Part shown: one piece after another, positions 421-27,720 of the stretch
Layout: every line of letters starts with the position of its first letter
How positions within the stretch are numbered: position 1 is the first letter of the stretch
NCBI GenBank assembly: GCA_001920415.1
Contig: MNJR01000049.1
Coordinates: 1-64,000, forward strand
Reading direction: 5' to 3'
DNA length: 64,000 bases
Origin: Acidobacteria bacterium 13_1_20CM_3_53_8
GTDB lineage: Bacteria; Acidobacteriota; Blastocatellia; Pyrinomonadales; Pyrinomonadaceae
Translations under genes and position numbers: made by a program
Notes under the pieces: model-generated
What the model was told of the DNA's origin: nothing
Seen by the model: the letters and a program-made list of their open reading frames with translations, nothing else
Database searches by the model: none

Positions 421-1917
421 TTACAGAGTAGCGCGCGAGGCCAGGGCTTCGCGCGCTACTTCTTTGTCATCGAAATGAGAAATCTCACGCCCTATGATCT
501 GATAATCCTCGTGCCCCTTCCCTGCTATCAAAACTAGATCGCCCGTGCGCGCTTCCGAGATTGCGCGCGTGATAGCTGCGCGTCTGTCAGCAATCTTTTC
601 GTAAGGCTTAGCAATCGAACGCAACCCCTCCTCTACATCCCGCAGAATTCTTTCCGGGTCTTCCGTTCTAGGATTATCGGAAGTCAGAATCACCACGTCG
701 CTCAGGCGCGCGGCAGCCTCTCCCATAGGAGCGCGCTTCGTCCTATCTCGGTCACCGCCGCAGCCGAAGACCGTTATGATTCGCCCGCGCGCAACGTCTC
801 GTGCCGCGCCGAGCACATTCAAGAGCGCGTCGTCAGTGTGCGCGTAATCCACCACGACTGCGAAATCGCCAGCATGCGGCACGCGCTCGAACCTGCCGGG
901 CGCGCCCGTGCAAGTACCTATAGCGCGCGAGATGGCATCAAGGCTGTAGCCTAGTTCTAGACCTGTGGCCGCAGCAGCAAGAATGTTGTAGATATGTGGC
1001 CGCCCGACAAGAGGTGAAGCGAGGATGCGCTCGCCCAATGGTGTCACAAGTTTGAATCTCATCCCTTCCAATGAATGCTCCACATCCACAGCCGTCACGT
1101 CCGCTTCAGCCGAGAGCGCATAGCGCACTACGCGCACGCCTCTTGATTCCATCTCACGAATCAAATCAAGTCCGCGCGCATCGTCCGAGTTGATGACGGA
1201 CGTGCGTGGCCGCTCGCCCAGACGCCCGTCGAACAGACGCTTCTTCGCATAAAAATAGGCTTCCATTGTCTTGTGATAATCCAGGTGATCGCGCGTGAGG
1301 TTTGTGAAGACAGCAACGCTGTAACGAAGCGCATCGCAGCGATGAAAGTCCATAGCCTGAGATGAGCATTCCATCACAGCCGTTTTGCAATCCACCTCGA
1401 CGGCGCGTCGCAAGAGACGCTGCATGTCTGTGGCTTCCGGCGTCGTCCTATCAGCTTTGAATCTTTCAGCGCCTATCCTGTATTCGACCGTGCCAGTCAT
1501 TGCTACAGGCTCGCCCGCAGCTTCTGCGATTGCTCCAACCAGATATGCAGTTGTGGTCTTTCCATTCGTGCCTGTGATGCCTACAAGCTGAAGCTCGCGC
1601 GACGGATGATTGTGAACCTTTGCGGCAGCCAGAGCCATAGCGCGGCGCGCGTCCTTGACCTCAATCCACGCGCCTTGAAAATTTTCTGGACAGGAATCTT
1701 CCGAGATAACTCCGACTGCGCCCTGCAACATCACCTGCGGGATGAATTTATGCGCGTCCCATTGCTCCCCGCGTATAGCTACGAAGAGAGCATCCTTGCC
1801 GGCGCGCCGCGAATCGTGCGTCACGTCTGCGATGGCGAGCTTGGCGTCTCCCGTCAATTTTCCACCCGTCGCTCGCTGTACATCTGCGAGCGTGACCTTT
1901 TTTCTCTTCTCGGACAA
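421..1917 (-). CDS. murE: UDP-N-acetylmuramoyl-tripeptide synthetase MurE (meso-DAP type)
   Basis: Cytoplasmic Mur ligase adding the third residue, meso-diaminopimelate, to UDP-MurNAc-L-Ala-D-Glu in peptidoglycan synthesis. At 498 residues it has the usual length and three-domain layout: N-terminal UDP-binding domain, central ATPase with P-loop GITGTNGKTTT at residues 113-123, and C-terminal ligase domain. The DNPR signature (TSDNPRTEDP) marks meso-DAP rather than lysine specificity, and GKGHEDYQ lies near the end. The start is a TTG preceded by an AGAGG ribosome binding site at good spacing; no ATG gives a better N-terminus. It stands alone, without murF, mraY or murD beside it, facing the PEP-CTERM gene tail to tail. 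Confidence 0.95.
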   Translation of the reverse strand: MSEKRKKVTLADVQRATGGKLTGDAKLAIADVTHDSRRAGKDALFVAIRGEQWDAHKFIPQVMLQGAVGVISEDSCPENFQGAWIEVKDARRAMALAAAKVHNHPSRELQLVGITGTNGKTTTAYLVGAIAEAAGEPVAMTGTVEYRIGAERFKADRTTPEATDMQRLLRRAVEVDCKTAVMECSSQAMDFHRCDALRYSVAVFTNLTRDHLDYHKTMEAYFYAKKRLFDGRLGERPRTSVINSDDARGLDLIREMESRGVRVVRYALSAEADVTAVDVEHSLEGMRFKLVTPLGERILASPLVGRPHIYNILAAAATGLELGYSLDAISRAIGTCTGAPGRFERVPHAGDFAVVVDYAHTDDALLNVLGAARDVARGRIITVFGCGGDRDRTKRAPMGEAAARLSDVVILTSDNPRTEDPERILRDVEEGLRSIAKPYEKIADRRAAITRAISEARTGDLVLIAGKGHEDYQIIGREISHFDDKEVAREALASRATL

Positions 1918-1970
1918 CTTGCACCTCTTTTAAGCTTGAAAGTCTCTTTGAATCTTACCTCATAAAACCG

Positions 1971-2085
1971 GAGCGGGGGCAAGCCCACCTTCCTGACTTG
2001 CGAGCCATTCGGAGTTGAGTATTTGCATTTGAACCTCTCGACTCTCATAACCTCAAAGGTCGGGAAGGTGGGCAGCGCCCCCGCT
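1971..2085. repeat. Intergenic inverted repeat between murE and the amidohydrolase gene
   Basis: The arm beginning GGAGCGGGGGCAAGCCCACC (from 1971) is matched in inverse orientation by GGGAAGGTGGGCAGCGCCCC (near 2061-2080), around a loop of roughly 60 bases. It lies between two divergently transcribed genes, so it is not a plain terminator. It is GC-rich and unlike the heptamer hairpins elsewhere in the window. Confidence 0.7.
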
Positions 2086-2171
2086 CTTTTGGAAGAAAAT
2101 AATAGACATCCTAATCAAAGAACTACGATAATCCATCACGCTCTGCTCATTTTGTTCCCCTGGGATTATTT

Positions 2172-3791
2172 ATGAAACGAACTGCTCTTGCGCTGCTCAT
2201 CTTCGCTGCACTTCTCTTCCCGCTTCTTCTTCCTGCCAGCCGAGCCGCTCCTCTTGATTATGACATCATCATCAGAAACGGGCGCGTGATTGACGGCACA
2301 GGCCGCGCTAGCTACAACGCGGACGTTGCTATCAAAGGCGAGCGTATCGCGCGCATTGGAAATTTGAGAGGTGCGCACGCGCGGCGCGAACTGGACGCGC
2401 ACGGTCTGGTGGTCGCTCCCGGTTTCATAGACATGTTGGGGCAATCGGAGATTTATCTTCTGATTGATCCGCGCGCGATGAGCAAAGTGATGATGGGCGT
2501 GACGACGGAGATAACGGGCGAGGGCGGCTCAATCGCGCCCATGAACGAACGGCTCATTCGTGAAGATGAAAGCTTTTATCGCAGATACAATCTGACGGTT
2601 GACTGGCGCACGGTGCGCGCTTACGTCGTGGGATTCGATAATCGAGCGCCAACACCGGCTGAACTTGGCGAGATGAAGCGGCTCGTGGCCGAAGCTATGG
2701 AGGACGGAGCGCTGGGCGTTTCCACTTCGCTTCAATACGTGCCCGCGCGCTTTGCTAAAACTGACGAGCTGATAGAGCTTGCGAAAGTTGCTCAAAAGTA
2801 CGGCGGCATATACGCCACGCACCAGCGCAGCGAAGCCAACGCGATTGATTCTTCGCTGGGTGAAGTCTTCCAGATTGGACGCGAGGCGCGCATCCCAGTA
2901 GAAATCTGGCATCTCAAAACTGCTTACAAAAGGAACTGGGGACGAATGCCTGAGATTTTAAGGCGCATCGCGGACGCACGCTCGCGCGGCCTCAACATAG
3001 CAGCGAACGTCTATCCATACACTGCCGCGAGCACTGCTCTCTCCGCTTGTCTTCCTCCGTGGGCGCTCGAAGGCGGGACTGAGAAAATGCTTGAACGATT
3101 GCGCGACCCGGCGATGCGCGAGCGTTTGAAGCGCGGGATAATGACCGATTCAAACGAGTGGGAGAATATCTATCTGGGAAGCGGAGGCGCAAACGGCGTT
3201 CTAATAGGCTCTGTCGTCAATCCTTCCCTTGAATCTCTTCAGGGCAAACGTCTTTCGGAGATTGCAGCAGAGCAGCGGAAAGAGCCGCTCGACGCGCTCT
3301 TCGATTTAATCATAGCGGATCGCGGGCAGACCGGGGCAATCTATTTCATGATGAGCGAAGACGATCTGCGCGCGGCGCTTCGCTCGCCTTTCGTAAGCAT
3401 CTGCACGGACAGCGGGGCGCGCGCAACTGATGGCCCGCTCGCCGGATCGAAATCGCACCCGCGCGGATGGGGAACTTACCCGCGCATTCTGGGGCGTTAC
3501 GTACGCGACGAGCATCTGCTCACGCTCGAAGAAGCCATACGGAAGATGACAGGCTTGCCAGCTTCGCGCGTAGGCTTGCGTGAACGAGGCCAATTGCGCG
3601 AGGGTTATTTTGCGGACATCACAATCTTTGACCCGAACACTGTGCGTGACCGCGCGACGTTCGAGAACCCGAATCAATATCCCGAAGGCATACCTTTCGT
3701 CATCATCAACGGCCAAATCAGCGTTGACAGAGGCCAGCGCACCTCCGCCCTAGCAGGCCACGTTTTGCGCGGCCCCGGTTATCACAGATAA
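2172..3791 (+). CDS. Secreted D-aminoacylase-like amidohydrolase with altered metal-site motifs
   Basis: 539 residues beginning with a signal peptide (basic MKR, hydrophobic stretch, cleavage after about residue 25). The body matches the amidohydrolase/N-acyl-D-amino-acid deacylase fold: a beta-sandwich start DIIIRNGRVIDGTG (31-44), the strand VAPGFID (81-87), then THQRSE, IWHLK, CTDSGA and the closing GYFADITIFDP. The usual HxH after GFID is absent: residues 85-91 read FIDMLGQ. The Cys of the family GNCG turn is replaced by Glu (TGEGG, 115-119). The later His and Asp positions are kept. It therefore belongs to a divergent branch; a hydrolase acting on N-acyl amino acids or a related amide in the periplasm is likely, but the substrate is unknown. 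No clear ribosome binding site precedes the ATG. Confidence 0.8.
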   Translation: MKRTALALLIFAALLFPLLLPASRAAPLDYDIIIRNGRVIDGTGRASYNADVAIKGERIARIGNLRGAHARRELDAHGLVVAPGFIDMLGQSEIYLLIDPRAMSKVMMGVTTEITGEGGSIAPMNERLIREDESFYRRYNLTVDWRTVRAYVVGFDNRAPTPAELGEMKRLVAEAMEDGALGVSTSLQYVPARFAKTDELIELAKVAQKYGGIYATHQRSEANAIDSSLGEVFQIGREARIPVEIWHLKTAYKRNWGRMPEILRRIADARSRGLNIAANVYPYTAASTALSACLPPWALEGGTEKMLERLRDPAMRERLKRGIMTDSNEWENIYLGSGGANGVLIGSVVNPSLESLQGKRLSEIAAEQRKEPLDALFDLIIADRGQTGAIYFMMSEDDLRAALRSPFVSICTDSGARATDGPLAGSKSHPRGWGTYPRILGRYVRDEHLLTLEEAIRKMTGLPASRVGLRERGQLREGYFADITIFDPNTVRDRATFENPNQYPEGIPFVIINGQISVDRGQRTSALAGHVLRGPGYHR

Positions 3792-3894: not shown

Positions 3895-4052
3895 TTTTAG
3901 TCGTTTTTTTCTGATAATCGCTGAAATCGCACGATTTTCTATTGACTCTTGAGCCGTTGCCGGAGTAGAGTTGCGCCCACGATATTTAAAGCATCACACG
4001 GTTTCGAGCATTTTCCAATAGAAGCAAGGTTTCCCTGACTATGGAGGCTTTT

Positions 4053-4730
4053 ATGAACTCAAAGCATAAGAAAGTGACTTCGGCAATCGCTCTAGTCCTT
4101 GCGGTCGCTCTCTCTCAAGTATACGTCCACGCAAATCTGCCGGATGCGTCAGGCAATACGAAAAGTCCTTCGAACGCTTCTGCGCCTTTTGGCAAGCTGA
4201 CGGCTAATTACAGCAACCCGACTATCAACAGCATGGTCGGCGTCAATGACGTTGCGGTTGAATCCGGCGCGACCATCTTTTCAGGCTCGCGCATCAATAC
4301 TCCTGAAGATGTCGGCGCAAAAATAGAGTTGGGCGCGCTGGGCCAGGTTGATATAGCTCCAGGCTCAAGCCTTACGCTTAACTTCACGACCTCAAACGTC
4401 GCCGTCAATCTAGATCAGGGATACGCAACGTTGACGACCAATCTGGGAATCAACGGAACGCTGACGACTTCCGCAGGCGCGGTCGAGCATACGGACATAA
4501 CCAAGCGCTCGTCCGTTGATGCAACTGCCGGAGCGGCTCAGGGTGGCGGCGGAACAACGGGTGGCGGCACGGGCGGAGGAGTTCCGGGCGCTGACTCGGC
4601 TCGGACTTTCGGCCTGATAGTTTGGGGATCAGCCGTCGTGCTCGCGTTCGTCTTCATCCCCTGCCGAGGCGGTCACCCCGGCAACGTTAGCCCACACACA
4701 GCCGGAGAAGATTGCCACCATCATCCGTGA
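4053..4730 (+). CDS. Small secreted, membrane-anchored protein with FecR-like beta region
   Basis: An ATG at 4041 is in frame, but its own bases form the GGAGG ribosome binding site for the ATG at 4053, which is therefore preferred (225 residues). A signal peptide (KKVTSAIALVLAVALSQ) leads into a beta-rich region of about 100 residues with the pattern SGATIFSGSRINTPE, LGALGQVDIAPGSSLTL and LDQGYATLTT, which resembles FecR-type domains. A Gly-rich linker (GGGGTTGGGTGGG) follows, then one hydrophobic helix (FGLIVWGSAVVLAFVFI) and a short Cys/His tail ending HHHP. It is probably held in the membrane with the beta domain outside the cytoplasm. The function is unknown. Confidence 0.75.
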   Translation: MNSKHKKVTSAIALVLAVALSQVYVHANLPDASGNTKSPSNASAPFGKLTANYSNPTINSMVGVNDVAVESGATIFSGSRINTPEDVGAKIELGALGQVDIAPGSSLTLNFTTSNVAVNLDQGYATLTTNLGINGTLTTSAGAVEHTDITKRSSVDATAGAAQGGGGTTGGGTGGGVPGADSARTFGLIVWGSAVVLAFVFIPCRGGHPGNVSPHTAGEDCHHHP

Positions 4731-4774
4731 TGATTGGCAAGCCTGGCAGGCTGGGTTTCTAATTCGGATAAAAT

Positions 4775-4822
4775 AAAAGCTAAGTGCACGGCTTATCTAA
4801 CCGAGTCAGGCACTTAGCTTTT
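4775..4822 (+). terminator. Putative intrinsic terminator
   Basis: A 13-bp perfect stem AAAAGCTAAGTGC / GCACTTAGCTTTT encloses a 22-base loop and ends in a short T run, 45 bases after the anchored-protein stop. The stem is convincing; the loop is longer than usual. Confidence 0.6.
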
Positions 4823-4840
4823 CTATGCCCAATCTAAATA

Positions 4841-4897
4841 GGTTTCAGGTTTCAAGTTCTTCGGCTTCTAACTTGAACCTTGAAACCTGAAACCTGA
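4841..4897. repeat. Heptamer hairpin (GGTTTCA family)
   Basis: Tandem 7-bp words GGTTTCA GGTTTCA AGTTC at 4841-4859 are followed after about 10 bases by their inverse, TTGAACC TTGAAACC TGAAACC TGAAACT. The element ends only about 16 bases before the start codon of the AhpD-like gene, so it lies in that gene's leader. Confidence 0.8.
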
Positions 4898-4913
4898 AAC
4901 TTGAAACTTAATT

Positions 4914-5483
4914 ATGACGTGGATTCGCACCGTACCGTTTGAAGAGGCAGACGAGAAGCTGCGCCGCGCAATGGAATCTCAGCGCGAGTTGTACCCCGTT
5001 GAGTACGCCACGCCGATTCATCCTACGCCCGATGGCGAAACTTCCGGCATAGTCGCCTCGCACAGCCTCATCCCCGAAGCGCTCTATCATGCGTTCGCAA
5101 CCTTCGGCGTGCTGATGTCTGCGGATTTGCCGCTCACGCGCGAGCAGCACGAGATGATTACCACGGTCGTCTCGGTCAACAATCGCTGCCATTATTGAAT
5201 TGAATCTCACGCAGAGTTTCTGCGTCGAGTGACTTTGAATGACGAACTGGTTCGCGCTCTTCAAGACGATTACAGAAGCGCGCCCATCTCGGACGAGAAC
5301 CGCGTGATGCTCGATTACGTTGTGAAGATTACGAAGGACGCAACCCGTGTGAGCCAGCAGGATCACGCGCACTTACGCGCCGCAGGCTTCGACGACCGTG
5401 GCATACTTCAAATAACGCTCATAGCATCTTGGTTCAACTACATCAATCGCGTGGCGGACGCGCTCGGCGTCGGTAGAGATTGA
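4914..5483 (+). CDS. AhpD-like peroxidase-family protein, candidate selenoprotein (TGA at residue 95)
   Basis: Read conventionally this is two reading frames, 4914-5198 and 5229-5483. They lie in the same frame, split only by a TGA at 5196-5198. Reading through gives 189 residues, the usual length of the carboxymuconolactone decarboxylase/AhpD-like peroxidase-related family. The family active site CxxCxxxH appears as C-H-Y-(TGA)-I-E-S-H, so the TGA sits exactly at the second Cys. The sequence after it stays family-like to the normal end ([16 protein letters not shown]), with no other stop or frameshift. A hairpin suitable as a bacterial SECIS follows the TGA. The likely reading is selenocysteine, making a peroxide- or disulfide-handling enzyme. 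The alternative is a recent nonsense mutation of a Cys codon. No sel genes are in the window. Confidence 0.7.
5207..5232 (+). promoter_or_regulatory. Candidate bacterial SECIS hairpin
   Basis: Just after the in-frame TGA, bases 5210-5215 (CGCAGA) pair with 5219-5224 (TCTGCG) around a three-base loop GTT, and weaker outer pairing (TCA with TGA) is possible. The loop begins 17 bases after the TGA. Bacterial SECIS elements carry a G in a small apical loop at about this distance, as in E. coli fdhF. This was judged by eye, without a folding calculation. Confidence 0.55.
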
Positions 5484-5508: not shown

Positions 5509-5982
5509 ATGCCGGACATGCTCGTTAACCTGTTGAAGCTTTCCTCCCTTGAACCTCTGCTTGACGAACTGAAACTGAAAGGTATCAACATACGTCGCGC
5601 GCAGAGTTTTGAGATAAGCCCCGTGCGCGAGTTCATACTGAAAAACTTCGAGCCGGGTTGGGCTGACGAAATTCTAGTGGGCTTCTCTCAAAAACCCGTC
5701 GCCATCTTCATAGCAACGAAAGAGGGTCGCGTCATAGGCTTTGCAGCTTACGAATGCACGCGCAGAAACTTTTTCGGACCGACAGGTGTTTCACCAAAAA
5801 TGCGCGGACTCAAGATAGGAAAGGCTCTGCTGCTCGCCTCTCTATGGTCTCTGCGCGAGATGGGTTACGTCTATGCAATCATCGGCGGAGTTGGGCCAAC
5901 GGAATTTTACGAGCGAGCGGTCGGAGCATCGGTCATCCCCGAAAGCCATCCGGGCATCTATACAGACATACTGCAAAGATGA
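5509..5982 (+). CDS. GNAT family N-acetyltransferase
   Basis: 157 residues with a GNAT fold. The acetyl-CoA binding motif A is visible as GVSPKMRGLKIGKALLLASL (R-x-x-x-x-G-K-A), preceded by the strand VIGFAAYE and followed by the usual YERAVGA helix. About 35 extra residues stand at the N-terminus. It begins 25 bases after the AhpD-like gene on the same strand and is probably co-transcribed with it. The acceptor substrate cannot be told. Confidence 0.75.
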   Translation: MPDMLVNLLKLSSLEPLLDELKLKGINIRRAQSFEISPVREFILKNFEPGWADEILVGFSQKPVAIFIATKEGRVIGFAAYECTRRNFFGPTGVSPKMRGLKIGKALLLASLWSLREMGYVYAIIGGVGPTEFYERAVGASVIPESHPGIYTDILQR

Positions 5983-27429: not shown

Positions 27430-27632
27430 GCCCGCGCGAGCGGGCGACCGTCTAAAGCCCAGTGCGTTAGCGCTGGGAAAGATAGCCATCAAGATTACCT
27501 AAGCCCGCGAGAGCGGGCGACAGCCCATAATAATCAAACGGCTGTCGCTATCTTCGATAGCTCGCTCTTCATTCTTGCGCTCTATCCCAGTGCTCACGCA
27601 CTGGGCTTTATTCTGCCGCCGTCTTCGACGGC
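27430..27632. repeat. Cluster of REP-like GC-rich palindromes
   Basis: Five short hairpins lie within about 200 bases of the gap 27359-27720: GCCCGCGCGAGCGGGC (27430-27445), CCCAGTGCGTTAGCGCTGGG (27458-27477), GCCCGCGAGAGCGGGC (27503-27518), CCCAGTGCTCACGCACTGGG (27586-27605) and GCCGTCTTCGACGGC (27618-27632), with CTATCTTCGATAG at 27548-27560. The two CCCAGTGC units are also inverted copies of each other with flanking GATAG/CTATC. No gene is seen in this gap; the structure resembles clustered REP elements. Confidence 0.8.
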
Positions 27633-27720
27633 TTAGAAATTTTTCGTTGCGTAACATGAGTTTGTAAGAGAGATTCCATTAAAGGCGCGAGACTAAACTT
27701 CAACGAATGACAACTTATAA

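Follow-up and report, generated by a model that had tools for sequence, protein, structure and literature searches.

The window analyzed here is a 64,000-nucleotide stretch of contig MNJR01000049.1 from Acidobacteria bacterium 13_1_20CM_3_53_8, whose genome (6.1 Mb in 155 contigs, 95.9% complete) has nearest relatives labelled Pyrinomonadaceae / Acidobacteriota. On the sequence evidence presented below, positions 4914 to 5483 of the forward strand almost certainly constitute one whole gene for an AhpD-like selenoprotein that carries selenocysteine (Sec) at its active site. The following features of this locus are referred to throughout.

4914 to 5483, + strand: predicted selenoprotein gene, AhpD-like, a TIGR01926 peroxidase-related enzyme with a CMD domain (from the translation with TGA as Sec, Pfam, TIGR01926 and full-length homologues).
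5187 to 5189, + strand: codon of Cys92, the putative partner thiol of CxxU (invariant in a 31-sequence alignment).
5196 to 5198, + strand: putative Sec codon TGA (U95), at the second Cys position of CxxC (TGA in 110 of 110 homologue loci; TGC in one relative, genome G127).
5209 to 5225, + strand: predicted bSECIS upper stem-loop, in which 5209-5215 pairs with 5219-5225 around a GUU loop at 5216-5218 (from its fold, the freezing of silent sites, pair counts in Sec and Cys genes, and the limits in PMC13188914).

When TGA is translated as Sec (U), 4914-5483 runs from an ATG at 4914 to a final TGA stop at 5481-5483 and yields a product of 189 amino acids with Sec at residue 95. The sole internal break is the TGA at 5196-5198, in agreement with an earlier, sequence-only reading of this DNA, which had described two half-frames lying in one frame with a TGA alone between them. 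The motif around this codon, R-C92-H-Y-U95-I-E-S-H99, also bears out the proposal that the TGA occupies the second Cys position of CxxCxxxH. Under translation table 11 the locus is read as two short ORFs, 4914-5198 and 5229-5483, which is the split that had been predicted for automatic gene callers. The window holds 17 comparable frames, defined as those interrupted by a TGA that has 70 or more codons on its 5' side and 50 or more on its 3' side, and a CxxU of a known redox family is found in 4914-5483 only. The 16 others contain no CxxU or UxxC and were judged by inspection to be chance occurrences or overlaps.

The table 11 call of two short ORFs, and the fact that the assembly is a draft of 155 contigs, would also fit a TGA that is a genuine stop arising from sequencing error or pseudogene formation, with two dead half-genes as the result. 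The homologues refute this explanation, leaving it a negligible probability. At codon 95, TGA is found in every one of the 110 close homologue loci (66-100% identity), a set drawn from a genome search and from named GTDB contigs, two collections that overlap and hold many duplicates; the same TGA is present in >80 distinct genes from independent genomes. Named homologue records derive from Acidobacteriota, Gemmatimonadota and one Latescibacterota MAG, and 48 of 116 relative genomes possess a TGA copy at E <1e-50. In a 49-row tree, the gene's own clade, distant members included (group I), is set apart by a branch with 96/97 support and comprises 104 distinct proteins, all with TGA. A distant clade with ~32-41% identity (group II) has TGA at the same codon; as counted here, group II has 12 members, namely those of the main distant clade plus two outliers that also carry TGA (L166 and L171). 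Eight Cys homologues, the G127 form among them, have TGC or TGT at the Sec codon, and three weak homologue loci (L138-L140) with no usable alignment were left out. Strong purifying selection is apparent on either side of the TGA, and for the downstream half a median dN of 0.19 with a dS of 2.2 (saturated) indicates strong constraint on the protein.

The same data bear on whether the locus might instead encode two functional proteins, an N-terminal one of 94 amino acids and a C-terminal one of 84 amino acids initiating at GTG 5229, which is codon +11 after the TGA and the earliest point at which translation could restart. While the window gene does have GTG at this codon, about two thirds of the homologues carry a non-start codon there (58 of 87 distinct sequences: GTC in 41, GTT in 8, GTA in 5, ATC in 3 and ATA in 1). 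Moreover, residues between the TGA and codon +11 are kept despite free silent variation, with Ser(+3) encoded by four codons of similar frequency and retained in 86 of 87 distinct sequences, and Arg(+10) encoded by five codons and retained in 85 of 87. This interpretation is likewise refuted by the homologues, and we consider it extraordinarily improbable. Collectively, the retained residues at +3 and +10, the non-start codons at +11 and the constraint on the downstream half exclude a pseudogene, a sequencing error and two separate genes, and these comparisons indicate that translation runs through the TGA.

We also examined the hairpin downstream of the TGA. The sequence-only reading had reported a 6-bp hairpin with a GTT loop starting at +18; the loop and its position stand, but the stem is 7 bp (5209-5215/5219-5225) rather than 6. 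The stem begins 11 nt after the UGA, the loop start at +18 corresponds to a 17-nt spacer, and the predicted MFE is -12.2 kcal/mol. The published bSECIS model specifies a loop of 3-9 nt with a G in the first two positions, an upper stem of 4-16 bp, a UGA-loop spacing of 16-37 nt and an MFE of at most -7.5 (PMC13188914). The hairpin lies within each of these limits (3-nt loop with G first, then U; 7 bp; spacing 17; MFE -12.2), consistent with the bacterial SECIS geometry that had been claimed for it. As a single-sequence fold it is modestly unusual (z of about -1.5 to -2.2), a level that on its own does not set the hairpin apart from chance. However, the mean normalised silent entropy of codons +4 to +9 (CAC GCA GAG TTT CTG CGT) across 87 distinct sequences is 0.05, compared to a mean of 0.80 (sd 0.14, minimum 0.31) for the 168 other codons. 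The loss of silent variation exactly over the hairpin codons implies selection on the RNA beyond that on the protein. At the fourth stem pair, every group I sequence has C-G and 7 of the 12 group II members have G-C; among 7 Cys homologues, 1 pairs at this position, and as a group these do not preserve the stem. Group II mostly preserves the stem using other bases, partly through changes on both sides, although two or three rows are out of register with it. Covariation in group II is supportive rather than conclusive evidence for the hairpin, given the 12 members, the misfit rows and the lumping in of L166 and L171.

The sequence-only reading had further implied that this genome should contain a Sec machinery, and all four components, selA, selB, selC and selD, are present: a tRNA-Sec with anticodon TCA (69.8 bits), and matches to SelA (559.6 bits), SelB (368.3 bits) and SelD (356.2 bits). 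The SelD gene (L018, G000:C5:42190-43116, - strand) is itself a selenoprotein candidate, with an in-frame TGA, the eleventh codon of the matched region, in the motif VSCAGUAAK. Given that tRNA-Sec occurs in 110 of the 116 relatives, its co-occurrence with the gene carries little weight on its own, and it is a weak point for the same reason that each of the 48 relatives with a TGA copy has at least one of tRNA-Sec and SelA. In genomes G020 and G041, tRNA-Sec, SelA, SelB and the AhpD-like gene are all absent. Several relatives have two tRNA-Sec matches over the cut-off, and one, G066, has four (on C15, twice on C6 and on C11).

Among 396 genomes of the phylum, a search recovered one close homologue without the stop (G127:C125, L180; 63-64% identity). 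This form has TGC at the Sec codon, and Thr replaces C92 (NRTRYC). Three of the seven stem pairs are left, and the local MFE is -3.5, compared to -8.8 to -11.5 in three Sec genes. In the G127 genome, which is 99% complete, no SelB match exceeded the cut-off, and the top-scoring match to tRNA-Sec (47.1 bits) proved to be a tRNA-Ser whose anticodon is TGA. These results imply that the Sec codon, the hairpin and the machinery, as judged by tRNA-Sec and SelB, were lost together. They also settle whether homologues have TGA or a Cys codon at this position, which the sequence-only reading had named as informative: close homologues have TGA, and the sole Cys form recovered at comparable similarity belongs to a genome without tRNA-Sec or SelB. 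The replacement of C92 by Thr in G127 indicates that C92 may not be essential as a resolving thiol, at least where Cys replaces Sec.

Could suppression or near-cognate read-through place Cys or Trp at the UGA instead of Sec? Misreading of UGA is possible in bacteria, and homologues with a sense codon have Cys at this position. Nevertheless, SelA, SelB, tRNA-Sec and SelD are all found in the genome, and the hairpin is under selection at SECIS spacing and was lost along with the Sec machinery in G127. Since unspecific read-through needs no such element, we regard decoding as Cys or Trp as very improbable. Recoding of UGA 5196 to Sec is, on these comparative data, strongly supported, and we propose that SelB carrying Sec-tRNA(UCA) would bind the hairpin that follows, so that the UGA is read as Sec.

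The full-length product matches the Pfam CMD domain (E 4e-8) and scores 113.6 bits against TIGR01926, "peroxidase-related enzyme", above the curated cut-off of 81.8; its N-terminal ~50 residues do not align to this model. The C92-H-Y-U95 motif is the CxxU of TIGR01926 AhpD-like (COG2128) selenoproteins. In contrast, the product is not a member of canonical AhpD (TIGR00777; 16.5 bits, curated cut-off 191.95), NF041238 AhpD_rel_CFYUT (53.4 bits, cut-off 175) or NF053654 GroundWater_YciW (seleno)protein (38.8 bits, cut-off 310). While it shares the AhpD/CMD fold with the latter two, these matches are weak and far below the cut-offs. The genome also holds a second AhpD-like selenoprotein candidate (L166, G000:C1:17487-18395) with the motif C-E-F-TGA-Q-D-I-N, which exceeds the NF053654 cut-off of 310 with 326.7 bits.

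An AlphaFold model of moderate confidence (pLDDT 75, ~60-67 around the motif; pTM 0.68) is nearly all helical. Its best structure matches are 2prr, 2pfx and 3c1l (E ~1e-6, probability 1.0, TM ~0.63), and sequence matches to known structures are in line with these, also being peroxidase-related proteins. Together with 2oyo and 6k40, these Cys-type proteins share the fold and the CxxC position at 25-31% identity; they differ in having Cys where this gene has Sec, and are mostly without established function. M. tuberculosis AhpD (1knc, 1gu9), a Cys enzyme with ~11% identity, is a weak fold match. Its active site consists of E118, C130, C133 and H137. E80, C92, U95 and H99 of the product, invariant among the 31 aligned sequences, have this same spacing, and we take E-x11-C-x2-C/U-x3-H to be an active-site pattern common to both proteins. 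By this analogy, E80, C92, U95 and H99 would form the active site.

A 2005 study of the Sargasso Sea reported AhpD-like COG2128 selenoproteins with CxxU (PMC1088965), AhpD-like 1 appeared in the 2008 GOS survey (PMC2398784), and a 2026 review places AhpD-like selenoproteins with CxxU under TIGR01926 (PMC13188914). Acidobacteria were among the known selenoprotein holders by 2006 (PMC1794560). The statement of the sequence-only reading that AhpD-like selenoproteins had been described in other bacteria is thus correct, and the locus adds a member to this known CxxU family, with which it shares the family model above its cut-off, Sec at the second position and a downstream bSECIS. It differs in belonging to an apparently separate clade of Acidobacteriota and Gemmatimonadota (support 96/97 in the tree built here), and in the N-terminal region outside the TIGR01926 alignment. 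What it adds beyond the known family is a clade that uses Sec almost exclusively, a pairing with a permease gene in about a third of relatives, and the second AhpD-like candidate. In a limited search of the open-access literature we found no description of near-exclusive Sec use, permease pairing or a swap of CxxU to TxxC, so novelty is unproven.

At 26 of 80 relative loci, the gene immediately upstream encodes an APC amino-acid permease; it has the same orientation and is usually no more than a few bases away. The median distance within this cluster is -3 bases, corresponding to an overlapping stop and start. At one such locus (L053), the upstream gene, a Pfam AA_permease_2 member, occupies 1664-3004 with its stop ending at 3004, and the selenoprotein gene starts at 3001. 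This linkage may point to a role connected with the uptake of amino acids or thiols. In the window, the upstream gene (4041-4730) has no family match, and neither the GNAT gene at 5509-5982 nor other window neighbours showed conserved linkage at the selenoprotein loci of relatives. Two further elements lie between the upstream gene and the start codon.

4772 to 4828, + strand: terminator-like hairpin between the upstream gene and the selenoprotein gene (z -5.8; putative role).
4836 to 4899, + strand: long inverted repeat built of TTGAAACCTGAAACC-like units, immediately preceding the start codon (z -6.8).

The inverted repeat may be a repeat element or form a hairpin in the 5' leader. Elsewhere in the window, a match to the Acido-Lenti-1 RNA was observed at 27586-27633 (43.4 bits, gathering score 37).

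Based on these data, the product is predicted to be a 189-residue helical protein of AhpD/CMD fold in the peroxidase-related branch. The U95 selenolate may attack a peroxide or another oxidant, after which oxidised U95 would form a selenenylsulfide with C92, to be reduced by a cellular thiol or a thioredoxin-like partner. A selenol-dependent thiol/peroxide oxidoreductase is probably, although by no means certainly, the physiological role. The selenoprotein could instead serve in thiol-disulfide exchange, dehalogenation or a function linked to amino-acid uptake, for which the permease upstream in 26 of 80 loci and a weak fold match to the debrominase Bmp8 (E ~0.003) can be cited. We consider such roles rather unlikely: within the window's genome the closest match to that permease (69% identity) sits on a different contig, the pairing is missing from many relatives, and both sequence and structure searches lead to peroxidase-related proteins, even if these are themselves mostly uncharacterised.

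More tentatively, and with less confidence than in the oxidoreductase role, we suggest that the gene may represent a distinct, nearly Sec-only AhpD-like subfamily, common in soil Acidobacteriota and Gemmatimonadota, which works with an APC permease, the two genes overlapping in some lineages, and in which losing the Sec machinery is accompanied by conversion of CxxU to TxxC. If this is true, the mechanism of the subfamily needs position 95 but no CxxC pair. The Cys form in G127 provides a natural before-and-after comparison for understanding why Sec is kept. Ordinary annotation would split or discard a gene of this kind, and, with TGA copies in 48 of the 116 relatives, annotations of soil Acidobacteriota probably miss part of their selenium-dependent redox chemistry.
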